Shown here: piece by piece, positions 37,601 to 58,559 of the stretch | Numbering within the stretch: the stretch's first letter is position 1 | How the letters are laid out: every line of letters starts with the position of its first letter | Source of the DNA: Stieleria maiorica | Lineage (GTDB): Bacteria; Planctomycetota; Planctomycetia; Pirellulales; Pirellulaceae | Assembly (NCBI RefSeq): GCF_008035925.1 | Contig: NZ_CP036264.1 | Coordinates: forward strand, 1,771,409-1,835,408 | Direction: 5' to 3' | DNA: 64,000 nt | Made by a program: the position numbers and the translations under genes | The notes under the pieces: generated by a model | Databases searched by the model: none | Seen by the model: only the letters and a program-made list of their open reading frames with translations | Told to the model about the DNA's origin: nothing

Positions 37601-38480
37601 TTTCCCAGCCGGGGATCGCGGGATCGGGGGCTCGGACGGTGACTTGGTTTTGCCGGCGGTCCACTTCGACCAACGTCCCTTGCATCGGCGGGACGTTCAT
37701 CTGGAACGTGACCTGGTTGCCGTTGTTGCGGGTCGTCATCGGAACGTCTTGACCGGCGGCCTGTTTCAAGTCGCGTTCGAACTCGCGCCAGGAAATGTTC
37801 TGCAGCCGCACGCTGATCGGGCCGGCCGAAACCGAAGACGCTTGGCGGACCGCACCGGCGACCAGCGACTTGACTTGCGATGCGATCACCGCCTGGTCCT
37901 TGGCCGGCGCCATCACCACCAATTGGCTGTTGGCCGGGTCGGGCGAAATCGTGATTCCCGGCAGGTCCTGGTAGCGAAGGCTGAGCGCCGTTGCGATCGC
38001 ATCGGCATGGATCGACGGGACCGCCAGTTTTCGCAATTGCGGAGAATCAGCGACCGCCGATGCCGGCGTTGTTGCGGCAACCGTACGAACGTGCCCTTGG
38101 GGCGACACTCCGGTATTGGCTTGCATGTATCGATGGTAGGCCTCGGCGTTCATCGACGGCATTCGCGACGGCCCACTGCCGGGGGCGACCTGCGATGGAC
38201 GGGTGTGCGGCGTTTGAGCACACGCGGTCGACACGGCAATCGCCGCGACAAGCTTTACGCTTAACGCTCGCCTGAGACCGGCAGCGACTGGGGAGACAAT
38301 GGTTTTCAAACGGTGCACGGGCAACACCTTTAGGCGTACAGGGTCAACAACAGACAGAACGGAGCTCCGAGAGCGCTTCCTCCGCTCATCCCTGGTGATC
38401 GTCTCCCCCGTTGCATCCCCTACAGTCAAACTGACCGCGATACTGGTACCGGATCGTTCCATCAGGCATGATTGCCACAA
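34671..38480 (-). CDS. gspD: Large type II secretion system secretin
   Basis: Up to 1269 residues from ATG 38480; the real start may be GTG 38318, which has aaaggtg upstream and leads to a hydrophobic signal (LVAAIAVSTACA). Several successive N-domains share the secretin KH-like pattern (IEYVPELGQIIVKGATRDVQ, NALLLIGRAEAIASLEELI, RTNSLIVSAAPRDMTEV), then the C-terminal secretin barrel with RPQLMTADNSEALINVGRQI and the closing VPVLGNLFKYDFEAERRNEL. It is about twice the size of typical GspD owing to extra N-domains. Forms the outer-membrane channel. No gsp operon surrounds it; a GspE-like ATPase is at 1818-3794. Confidence 0.93.
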   Translation of the reverse strand: MWQSCLMERSGTSIAVSLTVGDATGETITRDERRKRSRSSVLSVVDPVRLKVLPVHRLKTIVSPVAAGLRRALSVKLVAAIAVSTACAQTPHTRPSQVAPGSGPSRMPSMNAEAYHRYMQANTGVSPQGHVRTVAATTPASAVADSPQLRKLAVPSIHADAIATALSLRYQDLPGITISPDPANSQLVVMAPAKDQAVIASQVKSLVAGAVRQASSVSAGPISVRLQNISWREFERDLKQAAGQDVPMTTRNNGNQVTFQMNVPPMQGTLVEVDRRQNQVTVRAPDPAIPGWEKMISALDRVPNRYDDVTQVHRLQKADMAPVQRTMRLLRALRGDDMPQPGTSVFRNAVMQADQGSTPDTAGPQDGPSAGTEGAGPLGDVQIEYVPELGQIIVKGATRDVQRVMELIKEIESKAQLTQPDSKVVALQHADANAVAELLTQLYDDVLSTRQGDVSITSLDSPNALLLIGRAEAIASLEELIRKIDQPVEEASRLRVFRLQNASAVDAQDAILTFFSNRPGIEEDVRNGLGPRVRVSADYRTNSLIVSAAPRDMTEVTRLINELDVEKTPATSELRVFPLNNAVAEDLATTLQDAFATGEVASAGDATAPSTSLSILTVDSDERRMVESGILAGATITAETNSNSIVVRAPSSSMPLIAELIRQLDKAPGIDSLVKVFTIENGDAAQLTVSLETLFGSDAATSGTSIGGANAAGLPSSTAAAESSLVPLRFSTDIRTNSIVASGSSSDLEVVESILLRLDSEGFAERITEVIWLKHNEAVLVAAAITNYVNERQQSQTTIQQYQQGLGPYDLLDRDIVAIAEENFNSILLSVSPRLYEEVRLLIERLDRRRPMVLIKVMLAEVALEDAFEIGTELGLQDSLAFSRGQAAGAFADTISPGDPGFNFNNAGVPDTNDFGQGNLAATTVSTFGLGQSNPAIGYGGFVLNAASESVSLLFRTLQDAGRAQIISRPQLMTADNSEALINVGRQIARFRGSTVTNNNVTQNIEDITVGLILNIRPRVGSDGTILMDVDVTRSDRDEGNGTVVPDGTGGTVLIEDIVDTTAQATLSVMSGQTVIMGGLIQKSRANNSRRLPYLSNIPVLGNLFKYDFEAERRNELLVVLTPMLVTGEDDLEYIKQTESSRMSWCLADVVEAHGDVGLSGGYGLWGPAIGPTIYPDMQPTIDGEIVVGELPPGVITDQKKPVVGRPAGESILNQGFETETLPPARPADSLPTPPQPDVNQSSFRLPAGMIGSEGDQTLPASWIKPSGQ

Positions 38481-43513: not shown

Positions 43514-43750
43514 GAATGAATGACTTTCCTTGGTGCTGTTTTTGACGTTGGTGGTGAGCGTTGTGGGGACGACGCGTGGCGTGATCGGTAATCGCCGAAA
43601 GCATAGCTGCTTCCTAATGCGAACGAGGAGAAAAAAAGAAGTAATCGGAAGCGGCCGGTTATATTGGGGGGAAGCGAAACATCGGCTCCGCGTCTATGTT
43701 GCTTCACCCCACCTGTAATTCGTCCAAGACATTCCTATCTCAGGGACCCC

Positions 43751-46700
43751 ATGAAACGTCTCGGCTCTCGTTCGATATCACTGTTTTTGGTTTTGGTTGT
43801 CTGTCAGTCATTGGCGACGTCGCAATGGGCCACCGCCCAATCATCGCGTCTTCAGATTCGTGAGGGGTTGAAGCTGGCTGCGGTCGGCAATTCGCTCGGC
43901 GAGCGGATGAATTTGTACGGCAACTTCGAGACTCGGCTGCAGTTGCGTCACGCGGGGGCAAACCTTCGGTTTCGCAACTTTTGTTGGCCGGCCGACGAAG
44001 TCGGTAACCGCCAACGCCCGGGCAGCTACACCACGATCGATGACCCGCTGGCGGTCTTCGCCCCCGAGGCCTACCTGTGTTTCTTCGGTGCCAATGAGTC
44101 CTATGCGGGAACCGACGATGCCGCCGTGGCCGCGTTCGTCGCCTCCTATCGCGATTATCTGTCGCTGCTGAACTCGAATTACTCCGGCGGCAAAGCTCAA
44201 TTTGTCCTGGTCAGCCCGATTGCGTTTGAGTCCAGTGGCCATCGGTTGCATCCCGATGCGAGCACGCGGAACGAGGCGTTGAAGATTTACCGCGATGCGA
44301 TCGAGAAACTGGCGTCGGAAGAGAGTTTGCCCTTCGTCGACCTGTTCACCGAGTCCAAGTCGGCCTTCGATGCGGAGCCTGGCAATCAATACACGATCAA
44401 CGGGCTGCACCTGAACGAAGCCGGTGACCGCTGGGTCGCGCGGTTACTCGACCGGTCGCTGTTCGGCGATTCGCCGACGTTTGACGAATCGCAGTTCGAA
44501 TCGGTGCGTAAATGGGTCAACGACAAATCCTGGCTGCACCTGCAAGACTATCGCATGCTCAACGGCTGGTACGTCTATGGCGGTCGACGGACCTGGGACA
44601 CGGAAACCTTCCCCAGTGAATACCGCAAGATCCGTGAAATGGTCGCCGTTCGAGACCGATACGTTTGGGATCTCGCCCAAGGCAACCCCGTCGCCGATCG
44701 ACCGGATGATTCCGGCACCGGCCAGGTCGTCGTTCCCGAGACCATGTTTGGCACCCGGAGCGACAGTTTTCGCGAGATGCGCGAGCCCAAGGAACTTGTC
44801 TATCCAACCCCGGAAGAGTCGATCGAAATGATGACGGTTCCCGAGGGGATGGAGGTCCGGTTGTTTGCGTCCGAGCGTGAGTTCCCCGAACTGGCCAACC
44901 CCAACCAAATCGCCTTCGACGCCAAAGGCCGCTTGTGGGTTTCCTGCATGGCCAACTACCCGCAGTGGCAACCCGGTGCCGCACCGCCGGACGACCGGCT
45001 GCTGATTTTCGAAGACACCGACGGTGACGGCAAAGCGGACGTCTGTAAAACGTTCTATGACAAATTGATCTGTCCGACCGGGTTTGAGTTTTATGACGGC
45101 GGCGTCCTGGTCGTAGACGAACCGCGCATCCTGTTCCTCAAAGACACTGACGGTGATGACAAGGCCGACCAAGTGATTCAATTGATCGACGGCATCGCCA
45201 CCGACGACACGCACCACACGATGGGCGCGTGGGAGTTTTCCCACGGCGGCAACCTGCACATGCTCGAAGGCATCTCGCTTTCGACCACCCTGGAAACACC
45301 GTGGGGGCCGTTCCGCAACAAGAATACCGGTGGCGCCTACGTTTACGACCCGATTTCCCAGCGGGTCAGCCACTACCGCACTCCGGGTTACGGCAACCCC
45401 TGGTGCCTGGTGTTCGACCAATGGGGCAATGGTATCGTCGGTGACGGCACCAACGCCAAGCAACACTGGATCGCGCCGCTGGCCGGTAAAGAGGTCGATT
45501 CACGCAAAACGCTGCAGCCCGTGTTCGATAACCACGGCTTGCGTCCCGCGGTCGGCAACGAGTTTCTGTTGTCGCGACATCTGCCCGACGACATGCAAGG
45601 ACAATTCATTTATGCCTGTGTGATCAACATGCACGGGATGCCGCGATTCAATCTGCGATTCGAGTCCGACGGTGCCGGCTACGAAGGCGAACGCGTCGAA
45701 GACCTGCTGTCATCGACCGACATGATCTTCCGACCGGTCGATCCGAAAATCGGTCCCGACGGCGCGGTTTGGTTCGGCGATTGGTGCAACGCGTTGATCG
45801 GACACATGCAGTATTCGCAACGTGACCCCAACCGTGATCACACGCATGGCCGCGTCTACCGCTTGGTCAACAAGAACAAGCCGCTGTTGGACATCGTCGA
45901 TCTGACAAGACTTAGCGAATCCGAACTGCTGGACCAGTTGTTGGTGCCGGAGTTGCGAACCCGCTATCGCGTCCGACGGGTGTTGCGTGATCGGCCCGAG
46001 CAACAGGTGTTTGAGGCGATCGCCGACTGGATTGTCGACACGGACGACCCGCAACGGTTGTGCGAAGCGATGTGGATTCAGGAGAGTTTCCGAAACGTTG
46101 ACACGGACCTGATCGATCGGATTTTGGCGTCGGACGACTATCGCGCCCGAGCCGCGGCGATCCATACCGTCACCAACGAGATGTTGCGGATCGACGCCGC
46201 CCACGATTATCTGGCCGCCGCGACCTCGGATCCGCACCCGCGGGTTCGTCTGGAAGCCGTCCGCGGGATCAGCTTTCTGGAAACCCCCGACGCGACCGAG
46301 TTGGCATTGTCGGTGACGGATCACCCGATGGATTATTGGATCGACTACACACTCGAACACACCCTGCACGCCCTCGAGCCCGCTTGGTCGCGGGCCCAAA
46401 AGTCCGATAACTTCCTGGCCGGCAGCACCGAGCAAGCCAAGGCGTACTTTTTGCGATATCAACGCATGTCCGGCCCCGGCGGCGCGGCGGTCGTTCCCCT
46501 GGAAATCGCCGACGATGTCGATGCGTCGTCGCAAGACCGCAACGCGGCCATCGAAACCTTGGCCGGGCTCCGGGGCGGTAACGCCGGGCGAGGCGAAGAC
46601 GTGTTCAATCAAGTTTGTTCGGCCTGCCACCAAATCGGTGACCTGGGCAAAAAGTTCGGCCCCGATCTGTCCGACGTCGGATCACGGTTCGACAAACAAA

Positions 46701-47479
46701 AGATCATTCGGTCGATCGTGATGCCCAACGACGAGATCAGTAAAGGCTACGAGACGGTCAACATCCTGACCGTCGATGGCGATACCTTCAACGGATTTGT
46801 GATCGCGAAGACCGATGACACGCTTTCCCTGGGGATCGCCAACGGAAAGCAAGTCGACATTCCGATCGATGACATCGAGATCGAAAAACCGATGAAAGCC
46901 AGCTCCATGCCGGAAGGATTGCTGAAACAAATCGCGCCGATCCAGGCACTCGACTTGATCGCTTACCTGTCCTCCCAACGCGACATCACCAAGGTCTCTC
47001 GCCGGGGTTGGACCAGCGCCAAGTATCGCAATGAACCGAAGCTGCGGACGCACAACGGCGCCGTCGAAATCTCTCACGACGCCGCGATCAAACTCGGCCC
47101 TCACTTCGGCAACAACTCCTGGAACTCCGATCCCCATCTGTTGCTGACGCCCGTCGGGCGAGAGGGTTTCGATTTTGCCTTTCACAGCGACCACGATGCA
47201 AAGTCGCCTTACGTCACGATCCGCTTGAACGAAACGGCAACGCTAAAGCACTTGCTGTTGCGGAATCGATTGTCCAGTCAATTCCACTCGCGTGCCAAAG
47301 GATTGACGGTTTGGGTCAGTCCCGATGGTGAGGATTACCGACAGGTTTGGAAAGCCGACAAGCTCAAGGGCGACTGGATGATCGACTTTCCCGACGGCAC
47401 CAAGGCCCAATACGTGCGGATCGGGTTGGACGGCGAAGGCACGTTCCACCTGTACCAAGCCGTCGTGTTCGGCGAGTGA
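43751..47479 (+). CDS. Single-chain SGNH, dehydrogenase propeller, HEAT, CxxCH cytochrome and discoidin-like protein
   Basis: 1242 residues from ATG 43751 (signal SISLFLVLVVCQSLATSQWATA). Order: SGNH-like domain about 20-250 (GNSLGERM, FFGANESYAG, GLHLNEAGD; block I again lacks the Ser nucleophile); PVC-type dehydrogenase propeller about 355-740 (MEVRLFASEREFPELANPNQ, IFEDTDGDGKADV); HEAT-like about 750-890; c-type cytochrome with CSACH (about 956-960) and a late Met in SSMPEGL; C-terminal about 150 residues resembling a discoidin/F5-8 type C domain (LTVWVSPDGEDYRQVWKA). It combines in one chain what the gene pairs at 25441/23291 and 53025/56457 split. Proposed exported sugar dehydrogenase with built-in electron acceptor. 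Confidence 0.92.
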   Translation: MKRLGSRSISLFLVLVVCQSLATSQWATAQSSRLQIREGLKLAAVGNSLGERMNLYGNFETRLQLRHAGANLRFRNFCWPADEVGNRQRPGSYTTIDDPLAVFAPEAYLCFFGANESYAGTDDAAVAAFVASYRDYLSLLNSNYSGGKAQFVLVSPIAFESSGHRLHPDASTRNEALKIYRDAIEKLASEESLPFVDLFTESKSAFDAEPGNQYTINGLHLNEAGDRWVARLLDRSLFGDSPTFDESQFESVRKWVNDKSWLHLQDYRMLNGWYVYGGRRTWDTETFPSEYRKIREMVAVRDRYVWDLAQGNPVADRPDDSGTGQVVVPETMFGTRSDSFREMREPKELVYPTPEESIEMMTVPEGMEVRLFASEREFPELANPNQIAFDAKGRLWVSCMANYPQWQPGAAPPDDRLLIFEDTDGDGKADVCKTFYDKLICPTGFEFYDGGVLVVDEPRILFLKDTDGDDKADQVIQLIDGIATDDTHHTMGAWEFSHGGNLHMLEGISLSTTLETPWGPFRNKNTGGAYVYDPISQRVSHYRTPGYGNPWCLVFDQWGNGIVGDGTNAKQHWIAPLAGKEVDSRKTLQPVFDNHGLRPAVGNEFLLSRHLPDDMQGQFIYACVINMHGMPRFNLRFESDGAGYEGERVEDLLSSTDMIFRPVDPKIGPDGAVWFGDWCNALIGHMQYSQRDPNRDHTHGRVYRLVNKNKPLLDIVDLTRLSESELLDQLLVPELRTRYRVRRVLRDRPEQQVFEAIADWIVDTDDPQRLCEAMWIQESFRNVDTDLIDRILASDDYRARAAAIHTVTNEMLRIDAAHDYLAAATSDPHPRVRLEAVRGISFLETPDATELALSVTDHPMDYWIDYTLEHTLHALEPAWSRAQKSDNFLAGSTEQAKAYFLRYQRMSGPGGAAVVPLEIADDVDASSQDRNAAIETLAGLRGGNAGRGEDVFNQVCSACHQIGDLGKKFGPDLSDVGSRFDKQKIIRSIVMPNDEISKGYETVNILTVDGDTFNGFVIAKTDDTLSLGIANGKQVDIPIDDIEIEKPMKASSMPEGLLKQIAPIQALDLIAYLSSQRDITKVSRRGWTSAKYRNEPKLRTHNGAVEISHDAAIKLGPHFGNNSWNSDPHLLLTPVGREGFDFAFHSDHDAKSPYVTIRLNETATLKHLLLRNRLSSQFHSRAKGLTVWVSPDGEDYRQVWKADKLKGDWMIDFPDGTKAQYVRIGLDGEGTFHLYQAVVFGE

Positions 47480-47519
47480 CCCGGCGGGCAGAACGCAAGT
47501 CGGCTCGGTTGGGCCATTG

Positions 47520-47740
47520 GTTCTGCAGGCTCCGCCTGGGCTGTTTCAAAATCGTTCGATTCGGTCGCGTTTTCGATTCCGCGAAACCCTGCCGGGATCA
47601 GCCGTTTGGCGCCAGCCTACGGGTCTCCACTGACGATGTGGCCCGAACGCTGCTGTGGCCCGAACGCTTGCACGAATCGGCTGATGTCACTCGTGTTTCG
47701 TCGGCCGATGGCTGCTGTGAGTCGACGAATGATCGCGGGT
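47520..47740. repeat. Dispersed ~235-bp repeat, copy 2 (inverted)
   Basis: Reverse-complement match to 32281-32517 (see there). Here a 21-bp internal duplication is present: gtggcccgaacgctgct directly followed by gtggcccgaacgcttgc. Flanked by GGCTCCGCC-type words on both sides (gctccgcctgggct at 47530, gcgttccaaggcggagccat at 47760). Confidence 0.85.
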
Positions 47741-47799
47741 GGCGGAGCCACTCTGGCATTGCGTTCCAAGGCGGAGCCATGGAACGAGCCGAATGGGAA

Positions 47800-47827
47800 T
47801 CCACCTTCTGGCGAAGGTAGCTACGTT
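47800..47827. repeat. CTTCTGGCGAAGG repeat, right half (copy d)
   Basis: ccaccttctggcgaaggtag with ctacgttt, the right arm of the family seen at 3816, 30524 and 34570. Ends exactly at the stop of the cysteine desulfurase gene (47828). Confidence 0.7.
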
Positions 47828-49009
47828 TCACCGACAGAGCTGGTCCAATGCATCGAACAGCAGTTCCAGCTCCTCTCGTGTCGTCGTTTCGCCGCAGCTG
47901 ATTCGCACGGTTCCGTCGTCGGGCGATTTGATCGCCGGGTGGATCAACGCCGCGCAGTGCAACCCCGAGCGGACTTCGATCCCGAATTCGCTGTCCAGAA
48001 TCATGGCCGCATCGCCGGCCGCAAACCCGTCGATCGCGATGCTGGCCACCGGCAGGACGGGAACGCGGGGGCGTCCGATCACACGGACGCCGGGAACCTG
48101 TTCCAGCCCCCTGTAGAGTTCGCTCGCCAGTTCGGCCAATAGGTCGCGCGATGTCTCGAGCGCTTTCTGCGGCGATGTGCCAGCGCGTCGGCTGCGGAGG
48201 CCGGCCAGCCATCCGGCGTAGGCGGGGACGTTCAGATTGCCGGCTTCAAAACTTGCCGGATAGTCGTTCGGCATCTCCAGCGATTCCGAACGCGTGCCGG
48301 TCCCGCCAAACACGGTGGGGCGGATCCGGTCTTGGGCTTCGCGGCGGACGTACAAGAATCCGGTTCCCAGCGGCCCGGAGCCTCCCTTGTGTCCCGGGGC
48401 GGCCAACACGTCGATGTGGGCCTGGGTGACCGAAAGCGGCAGGTGACCGAAGGTTTGGGCGGCGTCAATGAACAACAGCGGCTTGGCCGGTGGATCGAAC
48501 TGATCGACCAGCCGCCTGCCGATCGCTTCGACCGGCTGGACGGCACCATTGACGTTGGCGGCGTGGACGACCGCGACCATGCGTGTCTGGGGTGTGACGG
48601 CCGAGAGCACGTCATCGACACTGACTTGACCCTGTGCATCGACCGGCACCACGGTCCAGGTGATCGAACCGTTGGCGACCAAATGTTGCAGGGGCCGCAG
48701 CACGCTGTTGTGTTCGGCCGCCGTCGTGACCACGTGATCTCCGCTTGTCAGGATCCCCAGCAGGCCTGCGTTCAAGGCTGCCGTGCCGCCGGAGTGCAGG
48801 GAGACTTCTTGGTCGTCGGCGGCGCCGATCCAGGCAGCGATCTCGCGCCGCAACCGCGCGATGATCTGGCCGGCCTGTTGCGATGCCCGATACGCTCCCC
48901 GGCCGACCGCCGCCTCGTGCTGTGTCGAAAACTCGTGCATCGCGTCCAGGATGAGCGGCGATTTCGGATAGCACGTCGCGGCATGGTCCAAGTAGATCCG
49001 TCGCGTCAT
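47828..49009 (-). CDS. Cysteine desulfurase, SufS/CsdA (group II) type
   Basis: 393 residues from ATG 49009 (MTRRIYLDHAATCYPKSP), chosen because its ATGA overlaps the MoaE stop. PLP fold I: SGGTAALNAGLL, VVHAANVNGAVQPV, PLP Lys in AAPGHKGGSGPLGTG and active Cys in RSGLHCAA, the R-x-G-x-H-C form of group II, where the Cys sits on a rigid loop. Encoded at the end of a MoaD-MoaE operon, so I infer it supplies the thiocarboxylate sulfur on MoaD for molybdopterin synthesis. Differs in class from the desulfurase at 28588. Confidence 0.92.
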   Translation of the reverse strand: MTRRIYLDHAATCYPKSPLILDAMHEFSTQHEAAVGRGAYRASQQAGQIIARLRREIAAWIGAADDQEVSLHSGGTAALNAGLLGILTSGDHVVTTAAEHNSVLRPLQHLVANGSITWTVVPVDAQGQVSVDDVLSAVTPQTRMVAVVHAANVNGAVQPVEAIGRRLVDQFDPPAKPLLFIDAAQTFGHLPLSVTQAHIDVLAAPGHKGGSGPLGTGFLYVRREAQDRIRPTVFGGTGTRSESLEMPNDYPASFEAGNLNVPAYAGWLAGLRSRRAGTSPQKALETSRDLLAELASELYRGLEQVPGVRVIGRPRVPVLPVASIAIDGFAAGDAAMILDSEFGIEVRSGLHCAALIHPAIKSPDDGTVRISCGETTTREELELLFDALDQLCR

Positions 49010-49434
49010 GGATGAATCCACTCGGTCGAATCGTCGGCAAAGGTCTCCCGTTTCCAGATCGGCACGTCCGCTTTCAGCCGGTCCATGATCCAGGGCAGTG
49101 CCGCAAAGGCGTCGCGGCGGTGGGCGCTGCTGCATCCGACCAGCACGCTCGCCTGGCCCAGGGGGACTTCGCCCAAGCGGTGCACGATCACCACGGCGGC
49201 CAGGGAATAGGTCCGCTTGGCTTCTTCGGCCAGTTGTTGCAATTGCACCAGGGCCATGGATTCATGGGCCTGGTAGTGGAGCGTTTGGGTGATGCGGACG
49301 CGCCCGGCCTTGGTGGTCGTTTTCCGCCGCGTCACACCGGCGAACCAAGCGTGCGCGCCCGTGTCCGGGTCGTCGATCTTGGACGACCAATCCGACAGCT
49401 CGATCGGTGTCTGTACCAGGCGAATGTCAATCAT
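49006..49434 (-). CDS. moaE: Molybdopterin synthase catalytic subunit MoaE
   Basis: 142 residues. Converts cPMP to molybdopterin with sulfur carried by MoaD. Family blocks: AHAWFAGVTRRKTT (substrate loop), LHYQAHESMALVQLQQLAEE, VVIVHRLGEVPLGQASVLVG, SAHRRDAF and the catalytic-Lys element VPIWKRETF near the C-terminus. Stop at 49006 overlaps the desulfurase start; MoaD ends 15 bp upstream. Confidence 0.95.
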   Translation of the reverse strand: MIDIRLVQTPIELSDWSSKIDDPDTGAHAWFAGVTRRKTTTKAGRVRITQTLHYQAHESMALVQLQQLAEEAKRTYSLAAVVIVHRLGEVPLGQASVLVGCSSAHRRDAFAALPWIMDRLKADVPIWKRETFADDSTEWIHP

Positions 49435-49449
49435 TGCTTTCGGTCGCCC

Positions 49450-49710
49450 CTAGCCGCCGCTGACCGGCGGGATCAATGCGAGTTCTGCGTCGCCAGGCTC
49501 GACGATGTGATCGCCGGCGACGTATCGGCCATCGACGGCCAGCCGACTGACGCCGATCAGTGGAGCCGCCGCGGGGACCTGTGCCGCGACGGCATCGATC
49601 AACATCGCCGCGGTCGCCGGCGGGTCGACCGTGACTTCGACGACGTCACAGCCGGCGGCGTCACGGACACCGGCAAACAGCAAAATCTGCATCGACACTG
49701 TGGCGCTCAT
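49450..49710 (-). CDS. moaD: Molybdopterin synthase sulfur carrier MoaD
   Basis: 86 residues, ubiquitin-like fold. LFAGVRDAAGCDVVEVTV at the start, SRLAVDGRYV mid-way and the obligatory C-terminal Gly-Gly (ALIPPVSGG) that becomes a thiocarboxylate. Starts at ATG 49710, overlapping the stop of the flavin/Fe-S oxidase gene (tcat at 49707-49710). Partner of the MoaE gene immediately downstream. Confidence 0.93.
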   Translation of the reverse strand: MSATVSMQILLFAGVRDAAGCDVVEVTVDPPATAAMLIDAVAAQVPAAAPLIGVSRLAVDGRYVAGDHIVEPGDAELALIPPVSGG

Positions 49711-52685
49711 CGGGGCGGCAATCCGAGTTCCTCGCCGACCTTCGGCAGTCGGCCGTAGGCGTACGCGAGCAGTTTCAGGGGGTGAATGGTGTGGAGTTGG
49801 GTGCCATGTTCGATCTGCATTTTACAGGCGCTGCACTCGGTGCAGGCGAGCCGCCGTCCGCTGCCGCGCATCGCCGAAATCATGGGCCAGCCGACGCGCA
49901 GACTATTGCGATAATTCTTGCGCTGCAATCCCCAGGTTCCCGCCATCCCGCTGCATCCGCCTTCGACGTGATCGACCCGCATGCCCGGGATCAGATTCAA
50001 CAACTCGATCGACGCGATGTCCGGATCCAAAACACGCAAGTGGCAGGGGCGGTGATAGGCGAATTCCAGGTCGACCGATTGGAACTGGCGATCGAGTTTT
50101 CCGTCGGCATGCAGCCCGCGCAGAAACTCGCACGCTTCATACGAGTTGCGGGCCACCAGGTGGGCGTCTTCGTCGTCCAGCAAGTTGGGGTACTCGTGTT
50201 TCAAACACAGCACGGCGGAGGGTTCGGTCGCGACGATTTGGTACCCCGATCGGACTGCTTCGGACAACATCCGCACATTCTTGCGGGCGATCCGTCGGGC
50301 ACCTTTCAAGTCGCCAGCGGTGATCCGCGCCATGCCGCTACCGGTCTGGGACGTGGGCACGTAGATCGCAATGCCATTTTGTTGCAAGACCTCCGCCAGC
50401 GCACGTCCCAGGTCGGGATCGTGATAGTTGGCGTAGTGGTCGACAAAATACAGCACCTTGGCACCGTCACCGGCCGGCTGTTTCGTCCAGCGTCGGCGCG
50501 AGGAATATCGCATGAAGCTGCCCGATGCGATCGATGGCAACTCCCGCGCCGCGGACAAGCCAAACAATTTGTCCGCCAGCCAGCGTGAGAATCCGTTGCG
50601 GATCAGCAGATTGGCGATCCAGGGAAACCGCGACCCGATCGCGGCGATGGTGTCCAGCCGACAAAGCAATCGGTCCGACAGCGGTTGCCCGTTGGTGGCC
50701 ACATACTGGGCCTTCAGCTCGCCGACGATTTTGGGAATGTTGACCGTCGCCGGGCACTCGACGCGGCACTGATGGCAATTGAAACAGAGGTCCGCGACCG
50801 CTTTGGCGCGGTCACCGGTGAGTGCTTCAACGTCGATCTTTCCACTCAACACGCCACGCAACAAATTCGCTTTGGCCCGCGGAGAGGCCTCTTCGCTTCG
50901 CGTCGCTCGAAACACCGGACACTGACGTTCCGAGCGTGCCGTCGTTCTGCACCGCGCGCATCCGTTGCAGGACTGCGCGACGACGTCGATCATCTCGCCC
51001 GGCGACCACTGTTGCAGCACCGGCAGCTCGGGAACCGCGCTGTTTTGCAGTCGCGCGACTTGGACGATCCGGTCGGTGGCTTTGATCAGTGTTCGCGTTT
51101 CGGTGGACACCTCGATCGATTCGCCGATCGGACGGATGTTTTCATTGGGCTGCTGAAGCACCGCGCCAAACAGCTTGCCGGGGTTCAGCCGGTGATGCGG
51201 ATCGAACAGGCGTTTGATTTGGCCCATCGCCGGCCAAAAGTCGCCGAACTGTTTCGGCAACAACGCGCTGCGGCTCAACCCCGCGGCGTGTTCGACGCTG
51301 ACGTGCCCCTTGAATTTCCAGACCACTTCGGCCACCTGCTCGGCGACGAGCCGAATCTTTTTGCGTTCGTCAGCGGACGACAGATCGATAAACGGGCGGA
51401 CATGCAAATGACCGTGGCCGGCATGGGCGAACACGGTCGCCGTGCATTCATTGTCACGCAAGGTTTTTTGAATCGCCGCCAACGCCTCGGGCAACTTCTC
51501 CGCCGGTACCGCGATGTCTTCGGTAAACGGAATCGGCATCCCCGGGCCCTTCAATCGACTCAGTCGCGGCGTGACCCGCCGGCACAACGCCCAGTATCGA
51601 TCACGGGTCGCTTGATCGGTCGCCGCGTGGGCGACGAAGGCCGAATCGGGACCGTGCGAGAGATCTTCACGCAGGATTTCGATGCGGTCGGTCAGTTCCG
51701 CAAGTGAATCTCCCTGGAGCTCAAGCAACAGCATCGCTTCGGCTTCCTGCGGCAACACGCTCTCAAACTGTCGTTCAGTCTCCCGCGCAATCCCCAGCAG
51801 CCGTCGCCCCATCAAGTCGCACGCCACCGGCCCGTAACCCAACGAACGCACGGCACATCGGGCGGCCGATTCCAAGCGGTGAAAGAACAGCATCACCACG
51901 CCGCGGTGCTTGGGGATCGGTTCGGTTTTCACCGTCGCGTCGACGATCAGTCCCAGCGTCCCTTGGGTCCCCACCAGGAATTTGGCCAAATCGACGCGTC
52001 CCAAATCGTCGACCAGCGAGTCGAATCGATAGCCCCCCCGCGCCGGCGGCGCGTCGTTGAGGTGTTCCAGGCAGCTTTGATATTGCGTTTGAATCTCCAT
52101 CAATCCGCGCGCCAGACGTCCCAGCGTTCCCGGATCGTTGGGATGATGTTTCGACACATCCAGCAACTCGCCGTCGACGGTCACGAATCGCAGCGATTCG
52201 ATGTTGTCGCGGGCCGAACCGCTACGCAGATAGTGGCTGCCCGAGGCGTTGATCGCCAACACACTGCCCATCGTCGTGATGCTGCGGGTCGCCGGATCGG
52301 GGCCGTACCAGCGGCCCAGTGGTTTCAAATTGCGATTGAGTTCGGCGATGGTCAGGCCGGCTTGCACCATGGCCACCGATTTCAGCGGATCGAATTGCAT
52401 CCGCCGCATGTATCGCGAAAAATCGACCACCAGTCCGGGGCCGACCGATTCCCCCGATACGCCGCTGCCGCTGCCTCGTGGGTGAATCGGCAGATCCTGT
52501 TCGCTGGCATACTGCACCAACGCGACCACGTCCGCCGCCGAACGCGGCCGCACCACGCCGATCGGCTGGATTTCATAAATGCTTGCGTCGGTCGCGTACA
52601 ACGTCGTCGAGACGGAATCGCACATCACGTCGCCGCGAACGATCCCTCGCAAGTCGTCTTGAATACGTTGTCGGTCGATTTCCAT
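49707..52685 (-). CDS. FAD-linked oxidase + 4Fe-4S + CCG-domain protein (D-lactate/glycolate-dehydrogenase-like)
   Basis: 992 residues. N-terminal FAD-binding PCMH domain (about 40-220: HPRGSGSGVSGESVGPGLVVD, TTMGSVLAINASGSHYLRSG), FAD-oxidase C-terminal domain about 260-510, then a ferredoxin-like region with CNGCARCRTT, CPVF and CFNCHQCRVECPA (about 575-690) and cysteine-rich domains (CSGMAGTWG, CTECSACKMQIEHG) near the C-terminus. The whole corresponds to YdiJ-type D-2-hydroxyacid dehydrogenases that pass electrons to quinone or an acceptor. First gene of the moaDE-desulfurase operon by overlap, a link that may be incidental. Confidence 0.92.
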   Translation of the reverse strand: MEIDRQRIQDDLRGIVRGDVMCDSVSTTLYATDASIYEIQPIGVVRPRSAADVVALVQYASEQDLPIHPRGSGSGVSGESVGPGLVVDFSRYMRRMQFDPLKSVAMVQAGLTIAELNRNLKPLGRWYGPDPATRSITTMGSVLAINASGSHYLRSGSARDNIESLRFVTVDGELLDVSKHHPNDPGTLGRLARGLMEIQTQYQSCLEHLNDAPPARGGYRFDSLVDDLGRVDLAKFLVGTQGTLGLIVDATVKTEPIPKHRGVVMLFFHRLESAARCAVRSLGYGPVACDLMGRRLLGIARETERQFESVLPQEAEAMLLLELQGDSLAELTDRIEILREDLSHGPDSAFVAHAATDQATRDRYWALCRRVTPRLSRLKGPGMPIPFTEDIAVPAEKLPEALAAIQKTLRDNECTATVFAHAGHGHLHVRPFIDLSSADERKKIRLVAEQVAEVVWKFKGHVSVEHAAGLSRSALLPKQFGDFWPAMGQIKRLFDPHHRLNPGKLFGAVLQQPNENIRPIGESIEVSTETRTLIKATDRIVQVARLQNSAVPELPVLQQWSPGEMIDVVAQSCNGCARCRTTARSERQCPVFRATRSEEASPRAKANLLRGVLSGKIDVEALTGDRAKAVADLCFNCHQCRVECPATVNIPKIVGELKAQYVATNGQPLSDRLLCRLDTIAAIGSRFPWIANLLIRNGFSRWLADKLFGLSAARELPSIASGSFMRYSSRRRWTKQPAGDGAKVLYFVDHYANYHDPDLGRALAEVLQQNGIAIYVPTSQTGSGMARITAGDLKGARRIARKNVRMLSEAVRSGYQIVATEPSAVLCLKHEYPNLLDDEDAHLVARNSYEACEFLRGLHADGKLDRQFQSVDLEFAYHRPCHLRVLDPDIASIELLNLIPGMRVDHVEGGCSGMAGTWGLQRKNYRNSLRVGWPMISAMRGSGRRLACTECSACKMQIEHGTQLHTIHPLKLLAYAYGRLPKVGEELGLPPR

Positions 52686-53024
52686 GCATTAGTTCGACCG
52701 CATCGAGCGTCCCAAGTCAACCAGGATGTAAGTTTCGGGTTTCAAGTTTCAAGTTTCGCGTCAGTTGGGAGTTGGGAGTTGGGAGTTGGGAGTTGGGAGT
52801 TGGGAGTTGGGAGTTGGGAGTTGGGGGGGCGTCGAAACGCGACCAAGAGCAGGGGAACCGGACGAGGAAATGCGTGACAAGAAAAGGTCGGGTGAAAACC
52901 TGAAACCCGAAACCTGAAACCAGTGGCCCCACCTCTGCTGCGGTTGTTGCTAAACTGATCGATCACCCGCGACTTTGTGCGATTTCCGCCCCCTTCCCCG
53001 CCCCGCCTTTTGAGACTTTTTGAA
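52686..53024. other. Divergent intergenic region with heptamer array and flanking inverted repeat
   Basis: Between the divergent oxidase gene and the ThuA-propeller gene. Contains nine AGTTGGG units at 52763-52825, ending in a run of seven G. The array is flanked by gtttcgggtttca (52732-52744) and its exact reverse complement tgaaacccgaaac (52901-52913). Further gtttc/gaaac words occur on each side. Both neighbouring promoters must lie here. Confidence 0.85.
52763..52825 (+). repeat. (AGTTGGG)9 microsatellite
   Basis: Nine exact heptamers with no interruption, then gggg. Each unit supplies a GGG run separated by four bases (AGTT), so the plus strand satisfies the G3N1-7 G-quadruplex pattern many times over. 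Copy number is likely to vary by slippage; a change of one unit alters spacing by 7 bp within the divergent promoter region. Confidence 0.97.
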
Positions 53025-56000
53025 ATGATGTGTCGACATCGACTTCGGCTGGTTCTCGTTCTCGCTCCAGTGATGCTTTGCGTGTGTGCCGGCGGACTGG
53101 CGGCATCCGCGGTTGCGGCCGATGCTGAGAAGAAACAGATCTTGATGGTCGCCGGGGCACCCTCGCACCGCTACGGCGCCCACGAACACTTCGCCGGGCT
53201 GCGAATCCTGCAAGACGCGATCGAGCAAAGCAGTGAGGCTGCCCAAGTCACCCTGGTCCGCGGCTGGCCGTCGGACGAACAGATCGCCACAGCGGACACG
53301 ATCGTGATCTACAGCGATGGCGGTCGACGTCACGTCGCGATGGACCACCGCGACCAGCTCCGCAAACGTCTCTCCGAAGGCGTCGGGCTGGTGTGTTTGC
53401 ACTACGCGGTCGAGATGCTGCCGGGCGAATCGGGCAAAGACTGGGAGGAACTGCTGGGCGGGCACTTCGAGATCAACTACAGCGTCAATCCGCACTGGGT
53501 GGCGGAGTTCAAGTCGCTGCCCGACCACGCGATCACACGTGGCGTCCAGCCGTTTGCGACCGACGATGAGTGGTATTTCCACTTACGATTCACCGAGCTT
53601 GGCAAGGTGACGCCGATCTTGTCCGCGGTCGCCCCTGCTCACACGATGAAGCGACCCGATGGCGATCACAGCGGCAACCCGCACGTCCGCAAAAGCGTCG
53701 CCGCGGGCGAGCCCCAAACGGTCGCCTGGGCTTACGAGCGTCCTGATGGCGGCCGGTCCTTCGGATTCACCGGTGGTCATCACCATTGGAACTGGGGCAA
53801 CGACGACGTTCGACGCCTGGTGACCAACGCGATCCGCTGGACCGCCGGGGAAACCATCGGTCCGGATGGGTCTTCACTCGGCAAGGAACCGGTCGGGATC
53901 AAACGGTTGCTGGAAAATCAAGACTACGACCGTCCCAAGGACTTTGATGAGCAAGCCACTGCGGAGCGGTTTCAGCTGACGGCGGAAAAAAAAAAGACGA
54001 GTGAACGTGAATCCGCCAAGCCGATCTATCTCTCCGGAAGACTGACCAGCGAAACGAAGCGGCACCGTGTCGAGATCGATGCGTCGATCGAGGGCGTGTC
54101 GGATTTGTATTTGATCATTGACGACGGCGGAGACGGCTTTGCATGCGATTGGGTGGACTGGGTTGATCCGACCATTCACGGTCCGGACGGATCAATGTCG
54201 CTGGTCGAATTGGGCTGGCAATCGGCGACCAGCGGTTGGGGGAGCGTCAGGAAGAACGCCAATTGCAGCGGAAAACCCTGGTCGGTCGACGGCCAGGTGA
54301 TCGGAAAAAATGCCATCGGAACGCACGCCGATAGCGTGATCCATTTCAAACTCCCCTCCGGTTTCAATCGGCTGACGGTGACCGGCGCATTGGACACCGG
54401 CGGAACGAGCCAGAATGGAGGGGCAACCACGAGCGTTCGTTTGGCGGTTTACTCTGGTGCCGCCCCCGCAACCCTCGGCAGCGCCCCGGACAATGCAATC
54501 GACGGCGACCAACGCGACCCCGGCAATGCGATCAAGGGAATCACCATCGCCGACGGCCTGGAAGCAACGCTCGCCGCCTGCGAACCGATGCTCCGCAGCC
54601 TGACGAATCTGGACATCGATTCGCGCGGACGCGTCTGGGTCTGTGACGTGATGAACTATCGAGGCAACCAGGGATCGCGTCCCGAAGGCGATCGGATCCT
54701 GATCCTGGAAGATACCGACGGCGACGGGGTCATGGACGATGCCAAGACGTTTTACCAGGGCCGTGACATCGATTCGGCGATGGGCATTTGCGTACTCGAA
54801 AATGCGACCGGGGCGGATGTCATCGTGACCGCTTCGCCCAACGTCTGGCGATTCGTCGATTCCGATGGTGACGACGTGCCGGACAGCAAGAACGCGATGT
54901 TCACCGGTGTCGGCAATCCGCAACACGACCACTCCGGTCACTCGTTCTTGTTCGGCCCCGACGGAAAACTCTACTGGAATTTCGGCAACACCGGCGAGCA
55001 GGTCAAAGACTCCGACGGCGAAACGGTCATCGACATTCACGGTCGGGCGGTGGTCGACAACGGGGCGCCGCTGCTGGGCGGCATGCCGTTTCGCTGTGAT
55101 CTGGACGGGGGCAACTTCGAAGTCCTGGCCCACAACTTTCGCAACAACTGGGAAACGACCGTCGATTCGTTCGGCACGCTTTGGCAAAGCGACAACGACG
55201 ATGACGGAAACCGTGGCACCCGAATCAATTTTGTGATGGAGCACGGCAATTACGGCTATCGTGACGAAATCACCGGCGGCGGCTGGCGCGAACCGCGGAT
55301 CAATCAGGAAGACGAAATCATGCACCGCCATTGGCACCTGAACGACCCCGGCGTCGTCCCCAACATGCTGCAAACCGGCGCCGGGTCGCCCAGCGGCATC
55401 TGCTTTTACGAAGGCCGCTTGTTGCCCGAGCGATTCTGGGACCAGATCATCCACTGCGACCCCGGCCCCAACATGGTTCGCGCCTACCCCTCCAAACCCG
55501 ACGGCGCCGGATACTCCGCGACGATCGAACCGCTGATGACAGGAACCGTCGATCGCTGGTTTCGGCCCGCCGACGTCTGCACCGCACCGGACGGTTCGCT
55601 GTTCGTGACCGATTGGTACGATCCCGGCGTGGGAGGACACCGCCAAGGCGACTCCGATCGCGGACGGCTGTTCCGATTGGCCCCACCGGGAACGGATTAC
55701 AAGATCCCGACGTTTGATTTCACGACGCCCGGCGGAGCCGTCGAAGCGCTGCGAAATCCGACTCTGGCGGTGCGGGCGCGGGCTTGGCGGTCGCTGCACG
55801 CGATGGGCCCAAAGGCTGAACCCGCACTACTGCAGCTCTACGCCGATTCGAATCCACGCCTGCGTGCCCGCGCGCTGTGGTTGCTGGGCAAGATCGATGG
55901 ACGTGGCGAACATTACGTCGCCGAGGCACTGGCCGATGCGAATTCCGATCTCCGAATCACGGCGATCCGATTGGCCAAGCAGCTGACCGACCAACCCTCG

Positions 56001-56405
56001 CTATGGTTGGCCGATGCGGTCGATGACCCGTCCGCGGCGGTCCGACGCGAGCTTGCGGTCGCACTGCGTTATGACACCAGCGATGCCATGCCGTCGCTGT
56101 GGGCCCAACTGGCGACGTCCTACGATGGACAAGATCGTTGGTATCTGGAAGCACTGGGAATCGGCAGCGACGTGCGCGCCGCCGAGTGTTTCGATGCTTA
56201 CCTGGAAGCCGTCGACGGACGCTGGGACACCCCCGCCGGCCGAGACCTGGTGTGGCGCGTGCGGGCCCCCAAGGCAGCCGATGCGATGGTCGCATTGATC
56301 GCCGATCCGAAACGCCCGTTGAACGAGACCGATCGCTACTTCCGCAGTCTTGAATTTCATGGCGCGGACGTTCGAGACGCGGCGCTGAAGCGTCTACTTC
56401 CCTGA
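53025..56405 (+). CDS. ThuA, NPCBM-like, dehydrogenase propeller and HEAT protein
   Basis: 1126 residues from ATG 53025 (ATG 53028 follows); signal LRLVLVLAPVMLCVCAGGLAA. Order: ThuA (trehalose-utilisation, glutaminase-like fold) about 35-275 (MVAGAPSHRYGAHEHFAGLR, FGFTGGHHHWNWGN); NPCBM-like carbohydrate module about 325-470 (LYLIIDDGGDGFACDWVDW, NAIGTHADSVIHF); PVC-type dehydrogenase propeller about 490-870 (ILILEDTDGDGVMDD, GHSFLFGPDGKLYWNFGN); HEAT-like C-terminus. No CxxCH; the cytochrome is in the next gene, 51 bp downstream. The ThuA and NPCBM domains point to extracytoplasmic sugar substrates. Confidence 0.92.
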   Translation: MMCRHRLRLVLVLAPVMLCVCAGGLAASAVAADAEKKQILMVAGAPSHRYGAHEHFAGLRILQDAIEQSSEAAQVTLVRGWPSDEQIATADTIVIYSDGGRRHVAMDHRDQLRKRLSEGVGLVCLHYAVEMLPGESGKDWEELLGGHFEINYSVNPHWVAEFKSLPDHAITRGVQPFATDDEWYFHLRFTELGKVTPILSAVAPAHTMKRPDGDHSGNPHVRKSVAAGEPQTVAWAYERPDGGRSFGFTGGHHHWNWGNDDVRRLVTNAIRWTAGETIGPDGSSLGKEPVGIKRLLENQDYDRPKDFDEQATAERFQLTAEKKKTSERESAKPIYLSGRLTSETKRHRVEIDASIEGVSDLYLIIDDGGDGFACDWVDWVDPTIHGPDGSMSLVELGWQSATSGWGSVRKNANCSGKPWSVDGQVIGKNAIGTHADSVIHFKLPSGFNRLTVTGALDTGGTSQNGGATTSVRLAVYSGAAPATLGSAPDNAIDGDQRDPGNAIKGITIADGLEATLAACEPMLRSLTNLDIDSRGRVWVCDVMNYRGNQGSRPEGDRILILEDTDGDGVMDDAKTFYQGRDIDSAMGICVLENATGADVIVTASPNVWRFVDSDGDDVPDSKNAMFTGVGNPQHDHSGHSFLFGPDGKLYWNFGNTGEQVKDSDGETVIDIHGRAVVDNGAPLLGGMPFRCDLDGGNFEVLAHNFRNNWETTVDSFGTLWQSDNDDDGNRGTRINFVMEHGNYGYRDEITGGGWREPRINQEDEIMHRHWHLNDPGVVPNMLQTGAGSPSGICFYEGRLLPERFWDQIIHCDPGPNMVRAYPSKPDGAGYSATIEPLMTGTVDRWFRPADVCTAPDGSLFVTDWYDPGVGGHRQGDSDRGRLFRLAPPGTDYKIPTFDFTTPGGAVEALRNPTLAVRARAWRSLHAMGPKAEPALLQLYADSNPRLRARALWLLGKIDGRGEHYVAEALADANSDLRITAIRLAKQLTDQPSLWLADAVDDPSAAVRRELAVALRYDTSDAMPSLWAQLATSYDGQDRWYLEALGIGSDVRAAECFDAYLEAVDGRWDTPAGRDLVWRVRAPKAADAMVALIADPKRPLNETDRYFRSLEFHGADVRDAALKRLLP

Positions 56406-56456
56406 ACGCATTGGGTTCGTTGATATTTGCCCGACCGTTGTCCCCACCTTCCCCCG

Positions 56457-57599
56457 ATGACGATGAAAGTTCACTCGTTGATTTTGACCGTTGCATTCCT
56501 ATTTCTTGTCCCGCCGCAGGCGCGGTCTGCCGAAAACGACTCACGGGCCGACCAGGCCCAGGCCCGCCAAGACGCTGTGATCGTTCGCGCGATTGAGCGG
56601 ATCAGCGATTACGACTATCGGTCGGATCCGGCGGTCGCCGAGGCGGTGATGCGGCAGATCCGACGCAGCCAGGGGACGCCGGAGTTCATGCGATTGGTCA
56701 AGCGTTTCAAACCCGATGGGATTGAAACCCAGTTGGTCAAAACGTTGGTCGGTGACGACCGATCGGCGGCGGTCGAATCGGCCGCATTGTTGTTGGAACT
56801 GGACGCCGGACGCAAAGCGATCCGCCGTCGGTTGAATTCAACCGGCCAAGCGGTCGCGGTGATCGAGACGCTGGGTTTGCTCGGCAACGGGCGCGCGAAC
56901 CATTTCCTTGCCGAAATCGTCAGCGACGCGGAGCGTCCTTACGACCAACGCCGTGCCGCCGTCACCGGATTGGCGAAATCCAACGACGGGGAAAAACGGT
57001 TGGTCGCATTGGCAACCGAAAAAAAACTCGTCGGTGACACGTTCCTTGTCGCCGGCGCGTTGCTGGCACGCAGCAAGGACGGCGGCATCCGTGATGCTGC
57101 CGCCAAAGTGTTACCGCAACCGGCATTGAAGGACGCCAAACCGTTGCCGCCGATCGATGAATTGGCCCAACTGCGCGGCGATGTTGCGGCGGGGTTGAAG
57201 TTGTTTCGGGGCGAAGCAACTTGCGCCAACTGCCACATCGTCAATGACTACGGCAAAGACGTCGGGCCGAATCTGTCCGAGATCGGAACCAAGCTCTCAC
57301 GCGAAGCGATGCTGACGGCTGTGTTGGCCCCCAGCGCGGGGATCAGCCACAACTATGAAAACTTCAGCGTGTTGACCGAAGAAGGCCAAGTGATCACGGG
57401 GCTAAAGATTTCACAGACCGACAACGAGATCGTGATCCGAACGGCCGATGCGATCGATCGAACGATCCCCGGCGAAGAGGTGGTGACGATCAAGAAGAGC
57501 GACACATCGATCATGCCGGAAAATCTGCATCACATCACCGGTCAGCAAGGATTGGTCGACATCGTGGAATACATGATGACGCTCAAGAAGAAAGGCTGA
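56457..57599 (+). CDS. Exported HEAT + CxxCH cytochrome (partner of propeller gene)
   Basis: 380 residues from ATG 56457 (ATG 56463 two codons later equally possible; the open frame from TTG 56427 is not needed). Signal HSLILTVAFLFLVPPQARSA. Helical HEAT-like repeats about 35-235, then a cytochrome c domain with CANCH (about 256-260), GPNLSEIG and a late SIMPENL Met, the same layout as the C-terminal part of the single-chain protein at 43751. Encoded 51 bp behind the ThuA-propeller gene on the same strand, so probably its electron acceptor. Stop abuts the stop of the convergent cytochrome gene. Confidence 0.92.
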   Translation: MTMKVHSLILTVAFLFLVPPQARSAENDSRADQAQARQDAVIVRAIERISDYDYRSDPAVAEAVMRQIRRSQGTPEFMRLVKRFKPDGIETQLVKTLVGDDRSAAVESAALLLELDAGRKAIRRRLNSTGQAVAVIETLGLLGNGRANHFLAEIVSDAERPYDQRRAAVTGLAKSNDGEKRLVALATEKKLVGDTFLVAGALLARSKDGGIRDAAAKVLPQPALKDAKPLPPIDELAQLRGDVAAGLKLFRGEATCANCHIVNDYGKDVGPNLSEIGTKLSREAMLTAVLAPSAGISHNYENFSVLTEEGQVITGLKISQTDNEIVIRTADAIDRTIPGEEVVTIKKSDTSIMPENLHHITGQQGLVDIVEYMMTLKKKG

Positions 57600-58559
57600 T
57601 CAGCGGTACTGGCCGTGACAGTCATCGCAGGACTGGGTGACCGCGCCGACGGCTTGGCTGATCACATTGTAATCGTCCAGTTCCAAGCCACGCGTGACAC
57701 CCTGAGCGGCTTTCGTCATCGCATTGCTAAACGCGACATAGTCGTCGTCATCGGCATCATCCATGCCTTCGGCGACAAGGATGCGGCCGATGATCGCCAG
57801 CAATTCGGCGGGACGGCGGACATCGCTCGGTTCGGCTTTGACGTCGTCGGCACTGTTGGTGGCGGTGCGAAGTTGTTCCTTCAAGATTTCGGCGTATTCC
57901 ATCAACGGCGCGCGGTCGGCGATCGACGCCCAATCGTTGCTCTCCTCTGCTTTTCCACTACGCAGTCCGGTGCCCGACATCAAGTCCTGCAAATCGTCCT
58001 TTCTCGCCCGCGCTTCGTTGAACACCTGGTTGGTGCCGGCGTTGCAATTGAACGCCGTTCGTCCCAACAGGTCGCGGGCGATGGCCGCGTCGTCCTTCCA
58101 CCGCACGTCGCCCTGGTACTCGGTGATGATCGCAAACAGGCTGCTCATCACCATCAAGTCCAACCGCGCGTCCTGGTAGCCGCCGCTCTTGAACGGCCCG
58201 GGCTGGGTGACGACGGAATCGTAATGCAATTTCACCCGTTTGATCTCGTCCTCGATCGAAGTCGGGGAAATCAACTTGTCCCACGGCCCGGCGTTCGCCT
58301 TGCTACCGTCCTCGGGGGTGGTGGACGCCGCCGCTGCAGGCGGGGCGATTTTCTTTCGCAGCTCTTGCAGGGTTGGTCGCTCGCCGCGGATCGCATCGCC
58401 CACGGAGTCGAAAAAAATGCCTTGGGTGGCATCGGCAGAAAATTTTGGCGCCGGGGCACGTTTTTCTTCGCCCCATGCGAGGTACGCGTGTGCGGAAAAG
58501 AGCATCGAACCGGACAGCAGAATGGCGGCGGGTAAGGTGCGATTTCGGGGTTTCATCAC
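57600..58559 (-). CDS. Exported cytochrome, class II-like (C-terminal CxxCH)
   Basis: 319 residues with signal peptide (LPAAILLSGSMLFSAHA). The only haem motif is CDDCH at residues 311-315, at the extreme C-terminus as in cytochrome c'/class II proteins; the preceding 170 residues look helical (LDLMVMSSLFAIITEY, SNAMTKAAQGVTRGLELD). Class assignment is moderate because the N-terminal half is unlike small c' cytochromes. Ends base-to-base with the stop of the 56457 gene (tgatca carries both stops). Confidence 0.8.
   Translation of the reverse strand: MMKPRNRTLPAAILLSGSMLFSAHAYLAWGEEKRAPAPKFSADATQGIFFDSVGDAIRGERPTLQELRKKIAPPAAAASTTPEDGSKANAGPWDKLISPTSIEDEIKRVKLHYDSVVTQPGPFKSGGYQDARLDLMVMSSLFAIITEYQGDVRWKDDAAIARDLLGRTAFNCNAGTNQVFNEARARKDDLQDLMSGTGLRSGKAEESNDWASIADRAPLMEYAEILKEQLRTATNSADDVKAEPSDVRRPAELLAIIGRILVAEGMDDADDDDYVAFSNAMTKAAQGVTRGLELDDYNVISQAVGAVTQSCDDCHGQYR

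Follow-up and report, generated by a model that had tools for sequence, protein, structure and literature searches.

The pyranose dehydrogenase of Coprinopsis cinerea (CcPDH) consists of a cytochrome b, an AA12 domain, and a CBM1, and its heme is reduced by L-fucose (PMC4332668). For Lac161_ORF7, a protein encoded on a verrucomicrobial cosmid, a published report describes hydrolysis of lactose by the purified protein with a Km of 1.8 mM (PMC5342196), and the function of the TIGR02604/TIGR02603 family of propellers and cytochromes is established no further than this one β-galactosidase report. Here, we analyzed three systems of this family in a window of 64,000 nucleotides from Stieleria maiorica (positions 1771409 to 1835408 of the complete 9.89-Mb genome); coordinates below are positions in this window. 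We judge it somewhat better than an even bet that they are three exported sugar or glycoside oxidoreductases of one large family of the Planctomycetes-Verrucomicrobia-Chlamydiae (PVC) bacteria, with c-heme or azurin-like copper domains as electron outlets.

Each of the three systems contains a TIGR02604 propeller (181, 289, and 227 bits against the curated cutoff of 122.2) and a TIGR02603 heme domain with a CxxCH motif (110, 102, and 92 bits against a cutoff of 68), and all three are members of this known PVC family. Approximately 33 core propellers are encoded in the genome, together with 38 cytochromes of the TIGR02603 type, and CxxCH is present in all 38 TIGR02603 domains. The commonest layout is a fused propeller-HEAT-cytochrome; propeller and cytochrome genes stand as adjacent pairs three times, two of them inside the window. 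The family was found at E ≤ 1e-20 in 15 of 59 sampled genomes of the phylum, and the two further members of this genome's class in the sample have 22 and 27 matches. Because the family is large and known, the three systems are three of its members and not a unique machine.

Domains were called with Pfam and NCBIfam, and all modules named in the first-pass annotation scored above or near the curated thresholds. P0001 (plus strand, 43751 to 47479; open reading frame 43664 to 47479, Met at 43751) is a single fused chain containing every module first ascribed to it, i.e., an SGNH domain (43850 to 44653; GDSL/SGNH, 7e-9), a propeller (44810 to 45874; DUF7133, 1e-60; TIGR02604, 4e-53), HEAT_2, a heme domain with one CxxCH and an axial Met in SxMP (46577 to 46975; TIGR02603, 1e-31), and a discoidin-like F5/8 type C (F5/8C) domain (47177 to 47434; 2e-7). 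Split pair 1 lies on the minus strand. Its P0004 half (25441 to 28203) carries an SGNH domain (27304 to 28071; 4e-10), a six-bladed propeller (25963 to 27078; DUF7133, 3e-67), and HEAT_2, and its P0005 half (23291 to 25189) carries a HEAT array, an azurin/auracyanin-like cupredoxin (23858 to 24214; Copper-bind, 6e-8), and a c-type cytochrome (23315 to 23713; TIGR02603, 3e-26; Cytochrom_C, 4e-9). Split pair 2 lies on the plus strand, with ThuA (53178 to 53843; 1.7e-20), NPCBM (54198 to 54440; 2e-16), a propeller (54519 to 55622; DUF7133, 2e-52), and HEAT_2 in P0002 (53025 to 56405; open reading frame 52977 to 56405, Met at 53025), and a HEAT array and a heme domain (57177 to 57581; TIGR02603, 3e-29) in P0003 (56457 to 57599; open reading frame 56427 to 57599, Met at 56457). 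The first description of these pairs as the same parts split over two genes, one with cupredoxin and the other with ThuA and NPCBM, thus stands, with the addition that P0004 also carries SGNH, a front end that it has in common with P0001.

The relationships of the three systems were read from their propellers. Among the propellers of this genome, the tree places P0001, P0004, and g6381055, all of which carry SGNH, in one clade (support 100/99), and P0002 lies outside this clade and apart from the other ThuA fusions. When relatives were added, all SGNH propellers still formed one well-supported group, and the propellers of the P0002 orthologues formed a clade of their own. As judged by these trees, the three systems are relatives and not one machine in three layouts; they are parallel paralogues, since they derive from two distant propeller lineages (SGNH, with P0001 and P0004; ThuA, with P0002) and have different outlets. 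They probably differ in substrate.

The first-pass annotation had proposed a common electron outlet and looked to propeller and cytochrome phylogenies that coincide. Agreement was found in the ThuA lineage, in which the cytochromes of P0002 relatives, fused and separate, form one clade (98/95), and propeller and cytochrome have traveled as a unit. In the SGNH lineage, on the other hand, the two trees conflict, which speaks against a common outlet. The cupredoxin-type cytochromes form one clade (99/97), whereas forcing the cupredoxin-type propellers into one clade was rejected by the approximately unbiased (AU) test (p = 1.2e-6). Placement of the L124 cytochrome with the cytochromes of its propeller sisters was also rejected (p = 4e-7), as was that of the L126 and L132 cytochromes (p = 0.001); the groups were picked after the trees had been seen, which weakens these p values, but the differences in likelihood are large. 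The SGNH lineage requires a minimum of five changes of outlet type. A sister relationship of the P0001 and P0005 cytochromes was not rejected by AU tests on the short domain (p = 0.27 and 0.35), and a single clade of all SGNH-linked cytochromes was not clearly rejected (p = 0.059); the cytochrome domain is too short to decide how the P0001 and P0005 cytochromes are related. By the tree comparison, the outlet of the SGNH lineage is an exchanged part and not a conserved core.

Four outlet types occur in the SGNH lineage: the cytochrome is found alone, with a cupredoxin, with F5/8C, or with a second cytochrome. The two-cytochrome type is that of g6381055 (L044:7056-10562), an SGNH propeller protein with two CxxCH cytochrome domains in place of cupredoxin plus cytochrome. 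The P0004 relatives L115, L116, and L141 have no cytochrome in a stretch reaching approximately 4.5 kb beyond the gene, and L201 and L202 of the verrucomicrobial Roseibacillus have a C-terminal cupredoxin-like domain, with no cytochrome detected in them. In P0005, the copper ligands His362, Cys429, His434, and Met438 are invariant in 12 relatives, and the heme residues Cys502, Cys505, and His506 and the axial Met603 are likewise invariant. The cupredoxin fold matches auracyanin (2aan; TM score = 0.90 to the target, 34% identity), and the P0005 model has a β insert between the heme motif and the C-terminal helix. The retention of these metal ligands agrees with the initial reading of the cytochromes and the cupredoxin as electron carriers.

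The propeller profile found pyrroloquinoline quinone (PQQ)-dependent aldose and glucose dehydrogenases (2g8s, 2ism, 7cdy, 3a9g, and 1c9u) as the best solved relatives; the profile query was required, as single-sequence searches of the PDB returned mainly repeat proteins. The AlphaFold model of P0004 (pLDDT = 82, pTM = 0.84) gave an AA12 PQQ dehydrogenase as the best structural match of its propeller (6h7t; Z-score = 27.6, RMSD = 2.9, 308 residues aligned), followed by CcPDH (6jt5; Z-score = 26.9). Z-scores against other PQQ dehydrogenases ranged from 24 to 27, with 25.3 for soluble glucose dehydrogenase (sGDH), and generic propellers, including those of the diisopropyl fluorophosphatase (DFPase) type, ranked behind the AA12 enzymes at approximately 24. 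P0002 matches PF07995 (GSDH) at 1.8e-6. Profile and structure alignment thus support a PQQ sugar-dehydrogenase fold, in line with the dehydrogenase-type propeller originally proposed.

The PQQ contact residues described for known enzymes (PMC6881789) were mapped onto alignments of the two lineages. The His144-type residue, the catalytic His of sGDH, and the Asn229-type residue are kept in all 63 sequences of the SGNH lineage and all 30 of the ThuA lineage, and the Arg406-type residue in 61 of 63 and 30 of 30, respectively. The Arg228-type residue (Arg430), which contacts the quinone, is kept throughout the ThuA lineage (30/30), including P0002, which therefore has all four residues. A His-His is invariant in the SGNH lineage, which also has two additional His residues (His723 and His737), and the HH, N, FRP, and His723/His737 positions of this lineage are strictly conserved. 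The Lys377-type residue had no reliable alignment placement and was excluded from the comparison. Few features of the propeller are as conserved as two DxDxDGxxD loops that resemble calcium sites (e.g., in 25963 to 27078).

The SGNH domain of the P0004 model has the fold of Axe2, 7br2, and other GDSL enzymes by Foldseek, in which this domain largely determines the ranks obtained with the full-length model of 920 residues, and its sequence profile matches 7br2 at 1.3e-10. In the profile alignment, the column of the GNS serine of 7br2 is Ser in block I of P0001 and Ala (GNA) in P0004; block V reads NxxH in both. Among 45 relatives, the nucleophile column holds Ala in 15, Thr in 15, Gly in 5, Ser in 5, Glu in 4, and Asn in 1, and the Asp of the block V DxxH is replaced by Asn in 41; the block V His is kept in 43 and the oxyanion Asn in 41. 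By these residues, most SGNH modules are dead hydrolases and would have a binding or structural role, and residual esterase activity is possible in the P0001 type. With the catalytic serine retained in only 5 of 45 sequences, the substrate-processing front end proposed at first reading is unlikely for SGNH. The wider idea of N-terminal swapping holds in part: front modules do vary, and the comparison supports their exchange across the family, but P0001 and P0004 share SGNH, and P0002, with its different active site, comes from a distant lineage. Proteins of the family encoded elsewhere in the genome have ThuA, sulfatase, ceramidase-like, DUF1080, FG-GAP, LamG, DUF6807, or TIM-barrel domains at the front or tail, and the carbohydrate modules NPCBM, F5/8C, LamG, sulfatase, and DUF1080 are fused within the family. 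The core is joined to ceramidase-like domains in two proteins and to a sulfatase in one (L062, L064, and L073). In L058 (G000:C1:7505842-7511771), two fused propeller-cytochrome genes stand in tandem and overlap by four bases.

Each half of the split pairs opens with its own Sec-type signal sequence, as assigned by eye, and the Met codons at 43751, 53025, and 56457 are in frame and directly upstream of signal-like sequences. Both halves of each pair are therefore probably exported separately. The cytochrome half of both pairs also has its own HEAT-like helical array. Fused relatives exist for both pairs. Those of P0004/P0005 have the order SGNH-propeller-HEAT-cupredoxin-cytochrome (L120, L125 to L130, L132, and L133), with 64% identity of L120 across the P0004 part, and those of P0002/P0003 comprise L155 (62%) and twenty more. 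In L156, ThuA is split off as well. At least five changes between the fused and split states are required on each propeller tree, and their direction is unproven because the trees are unrooted for that purpose. The fused SGNH...F5/8C arrangement of P0001 occurs in 18 orthologues from named genomes (L180 to L198 without L192), and the closest proteins among named genomes are from Rhodopirellula sp. JC639 (94%) and Stieleria sedimenti (87%). In genome G137, a single strand carries orthologues of all three systems in a stretch of approximately 21 kb, and those of P0001 and P0002 are also linked in G184; the clustering is thus partly conserved in the genus.

The computed results cover the domains and fold, the metal ligands, the fused relatives of each split pair, the exchange of outlets, and the active-site differences; from these we infer the dehydrogenase activity, the sugar substrate, the electron route, and the roles of SGNH and ThuA as follows. 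The six-bladed propeller would oxidize a sugar or glycoside and pass electrons to a covalently attached or partner outlet, i.e., a class-I-type c-heme domain with a β insert (TIGR02603), to which pair 1 would add an azurin/auracyanin-like type-1 copper domain, and the outlet would deliver them to the respiratory chain. The HEAT arrays may hold the parts together and may be the site where the halves split or fuse. NPCBM, F5/8C, and the mostly inactive SGNH probably bind carbohydrate, and ThuA probably acts on the product.

The genes around the propellers offer a clue to this product. By circular shifts in this one genome, 6 of 33 propeller genes contain DUF1080 or have it no more than 1 kb away (0.72 expected; 6 reached in 3 of 3,000 shifts), and ThuA is fused to 4 of 33 (0.16 expected; reached in 0 of 3,000). 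The whole genome (G000) has approximately 41 DUF1080 and 78 PSCyt1 domains. Among the DUF1080 proteins are a hydrolase of 3-ketotrehalose and a probable hydrolase of 3-ketolactose, the latter acting with a periplasmic lactose 3-dehydrogenase (PMC9007349). Because ThuA and DUF1080 are enriched at propeller loci, 3-keto-glycoside chemistry is suggested by analogy, with oxidation of glycosides at C3 by this family. In a fuller form, which we rate well below even odds, the family would supply the oxidation steps of a 3-keto-glycoside pathway that PVC bacteria run outside the cytoplasm; propeller glycoside 3-dehydrogenases with interchangeable c-heme or type-1 copper outlets would use scavenged PQQ or an unknown cofactor, and their products would be handled downstream by fused or neighboring ThuA and DUF1080 (3-keto-disaccharide hydrolase).

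Several observations weigh against an oxidoreductase function. The Arg228-type residue is kept in 0 of 63 sequences of the SGNH lineage, P0001 and P0004 included, in which Ala, Gly, Ser, or a similar residue takes its place, and the Arg408-type residue is absent in both window lineages, which have Val or Ala; it is also missing in AA12 (PMC6881789). No PqqC was found in this genome, and none scored above the cutoff in 149 genomes of the phylum (sub-threshold matches in 5; no clean positive control), so that PQQ would be scavenged or another cofactor used. The PqqE search gave weak radical-SAM matches only, and its models match all control genomes and have no value as an indicator of PQQ. A lack of synthesis would be compatible with the use of PQQ, since E. 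coli, too, depends on external PQQ (PMC6881789). A shared fold is no proof of function, and DFPases and lactonases also reach Z-scores of 23 to 24 against the P0004 model. Finally, the activity reported for the sole characterized relative with this architecture is that of a β-galactosidase and not of a dehydrogenase (PMC5342196).

These points bear on two other accounts of the propeller. It might no longer be redox-active and might instead act in binding, as a scaffold, or as a hydrolase of the lactonase type, with the heme domain serving another partner; the loss of the Arg228-type residue in the SGNH lineage, the failure to find PQQ synthesis, the good match of generic propellers to the P0004 model, and the loss of His in several paralogues favor this account, but the HH, N, FRP, and His723/His737 positions of the SGNH lineage and all four residues of the ThuA lineage are conserved like an active site, and we regard it as unlikely. 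That the propeller is a β-galactosidase-like glycoside hydrolase, with an incidental or regulatory cytochrome, seems to us distinctly unlikely: dehydrogenases are its closest matches both among solved folds and by sequence, and the conserved metal ligands of the outlet imply electron transfer. BL21(DE3) carries LacZ. The lactose hydrolysis that favors a glycoside hydrolase was reported for Lac161_ORF7 purified from IPTG-induced BL21(DE3), with a Km noted by its authors as close to that of LacZ (PMC5342196), and contamination by the host enzyme is possible, as inferred from the expression strain. Lactose cleavage could also proceed via a 3-keto intermediate, and 3-keto-glycoside chemistry could in this way account for the β-galactosidase report. 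A single conserved propeller-HEAT-cytochrome core in which the front end alone is swapped would explain its fusion in the genome to SGNH, ThuA, sulfatase, ceramidase-like, DUF1080, FG-GAP, and LamG domains and the single clade of fused and split ThuA-lineage cytochromes; it is refuted for the SGNH lineage, in which the cupredoxin-type cytochromes form a clade that their propellers do not and the L124, L126, and L132 cytochromes do not follow their propellers, and is very improbable overall. The existence of fused relatives would also fit sequencing or frameshift artifacts as the origin of the pairs, but every half carries a start and a signal sequence of its own, and the splits are seen again in several relatives and genera, which makes artifacts a negligible prospect. 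The favored reading thus remains that of exported oxidoreductases with exchangeable outlets.

Two other genes of the window were noted. A large secretin with six Secretin_N stretches is encoded at 34671 to 38480 on the minus strand, and the gene at 57600 to 58559 (minus strand), convergent with that of P0003, has a weak C-terminal cytochrome c'-type match below the Pfam cutoff. Outside the PVC group, a propeller-related "dehydrogenase" gene adjoins a separate c-type cytochrome gene on a Ketogulonicigenium plasmid, an arrangement that favors the oxidoreductase reading.

Planctomycete genomes of this class carry approximately twenty to thirty propellers of a family whose function is almost uncharted. 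The present results give points that can be tested, namely, the key residues, the lineage expected to accept PQQ, the mostly non-esterase nature of SGNH, and the connection of ThuA and DUF1080 to 3-keto-glycosides, and the exchange of heme and copper outlets on one propeller lineage is a natural experiment on how an enzyme can be connected to different electron acceptors. The family is known; the literature found, which is mainly open access, contains no description of an exchangeable outlet, a mostly dead SGNH, or two active-site types.

Compared with the family as described, the window differs in that two of its three systems are split over two genes and one has an azurin-like copper domain. 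Lac161_ORF7 (GenBank accession number AGW45552), compared here by its description, likewise has a TIGR02604 propeller, HEAT_2, and a CxxCH cytochrome (PMC5342196); no front module is described for it, whereas the window systems carry front modules. The lactose 3-dehydrogenase LacABC belongs to a different dehydrogenase family; its periplasmic glycoside oxidation is paired with DUF1080 (PMC9007349), and in this genome some of the propeller-cytochromes have DUF1080 or ThuA as a fused or neighboring module; C3 oxidation by them is putative. The sGDH and aldose sugar dehydrogenase (Asd) enzymes of PF07995 (GSDH) have the fold and part of the active site in common with the window propellers, but they are single domains with Arg408, whereas the window propellers are multidomain and have no equivalent of this residue. 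CcPDH, a precedent for the favored reading, resembles the window systems in its six-bladed propeller (Z-score = 26.9), its cytochrome in the same chain, and its carbohydrate-binding module, and it has the four cofactor residues in common with the ThuA lineage; the equivalent of its Arg430 (Arg228) is absent from the SGNH lineage. Its heme b domain (AA8) is N-terminal, whereas the c-heme of the window systems is C-terminal, and PQQ has been shown in CcPDH, whereas its use by the window systems is putative.

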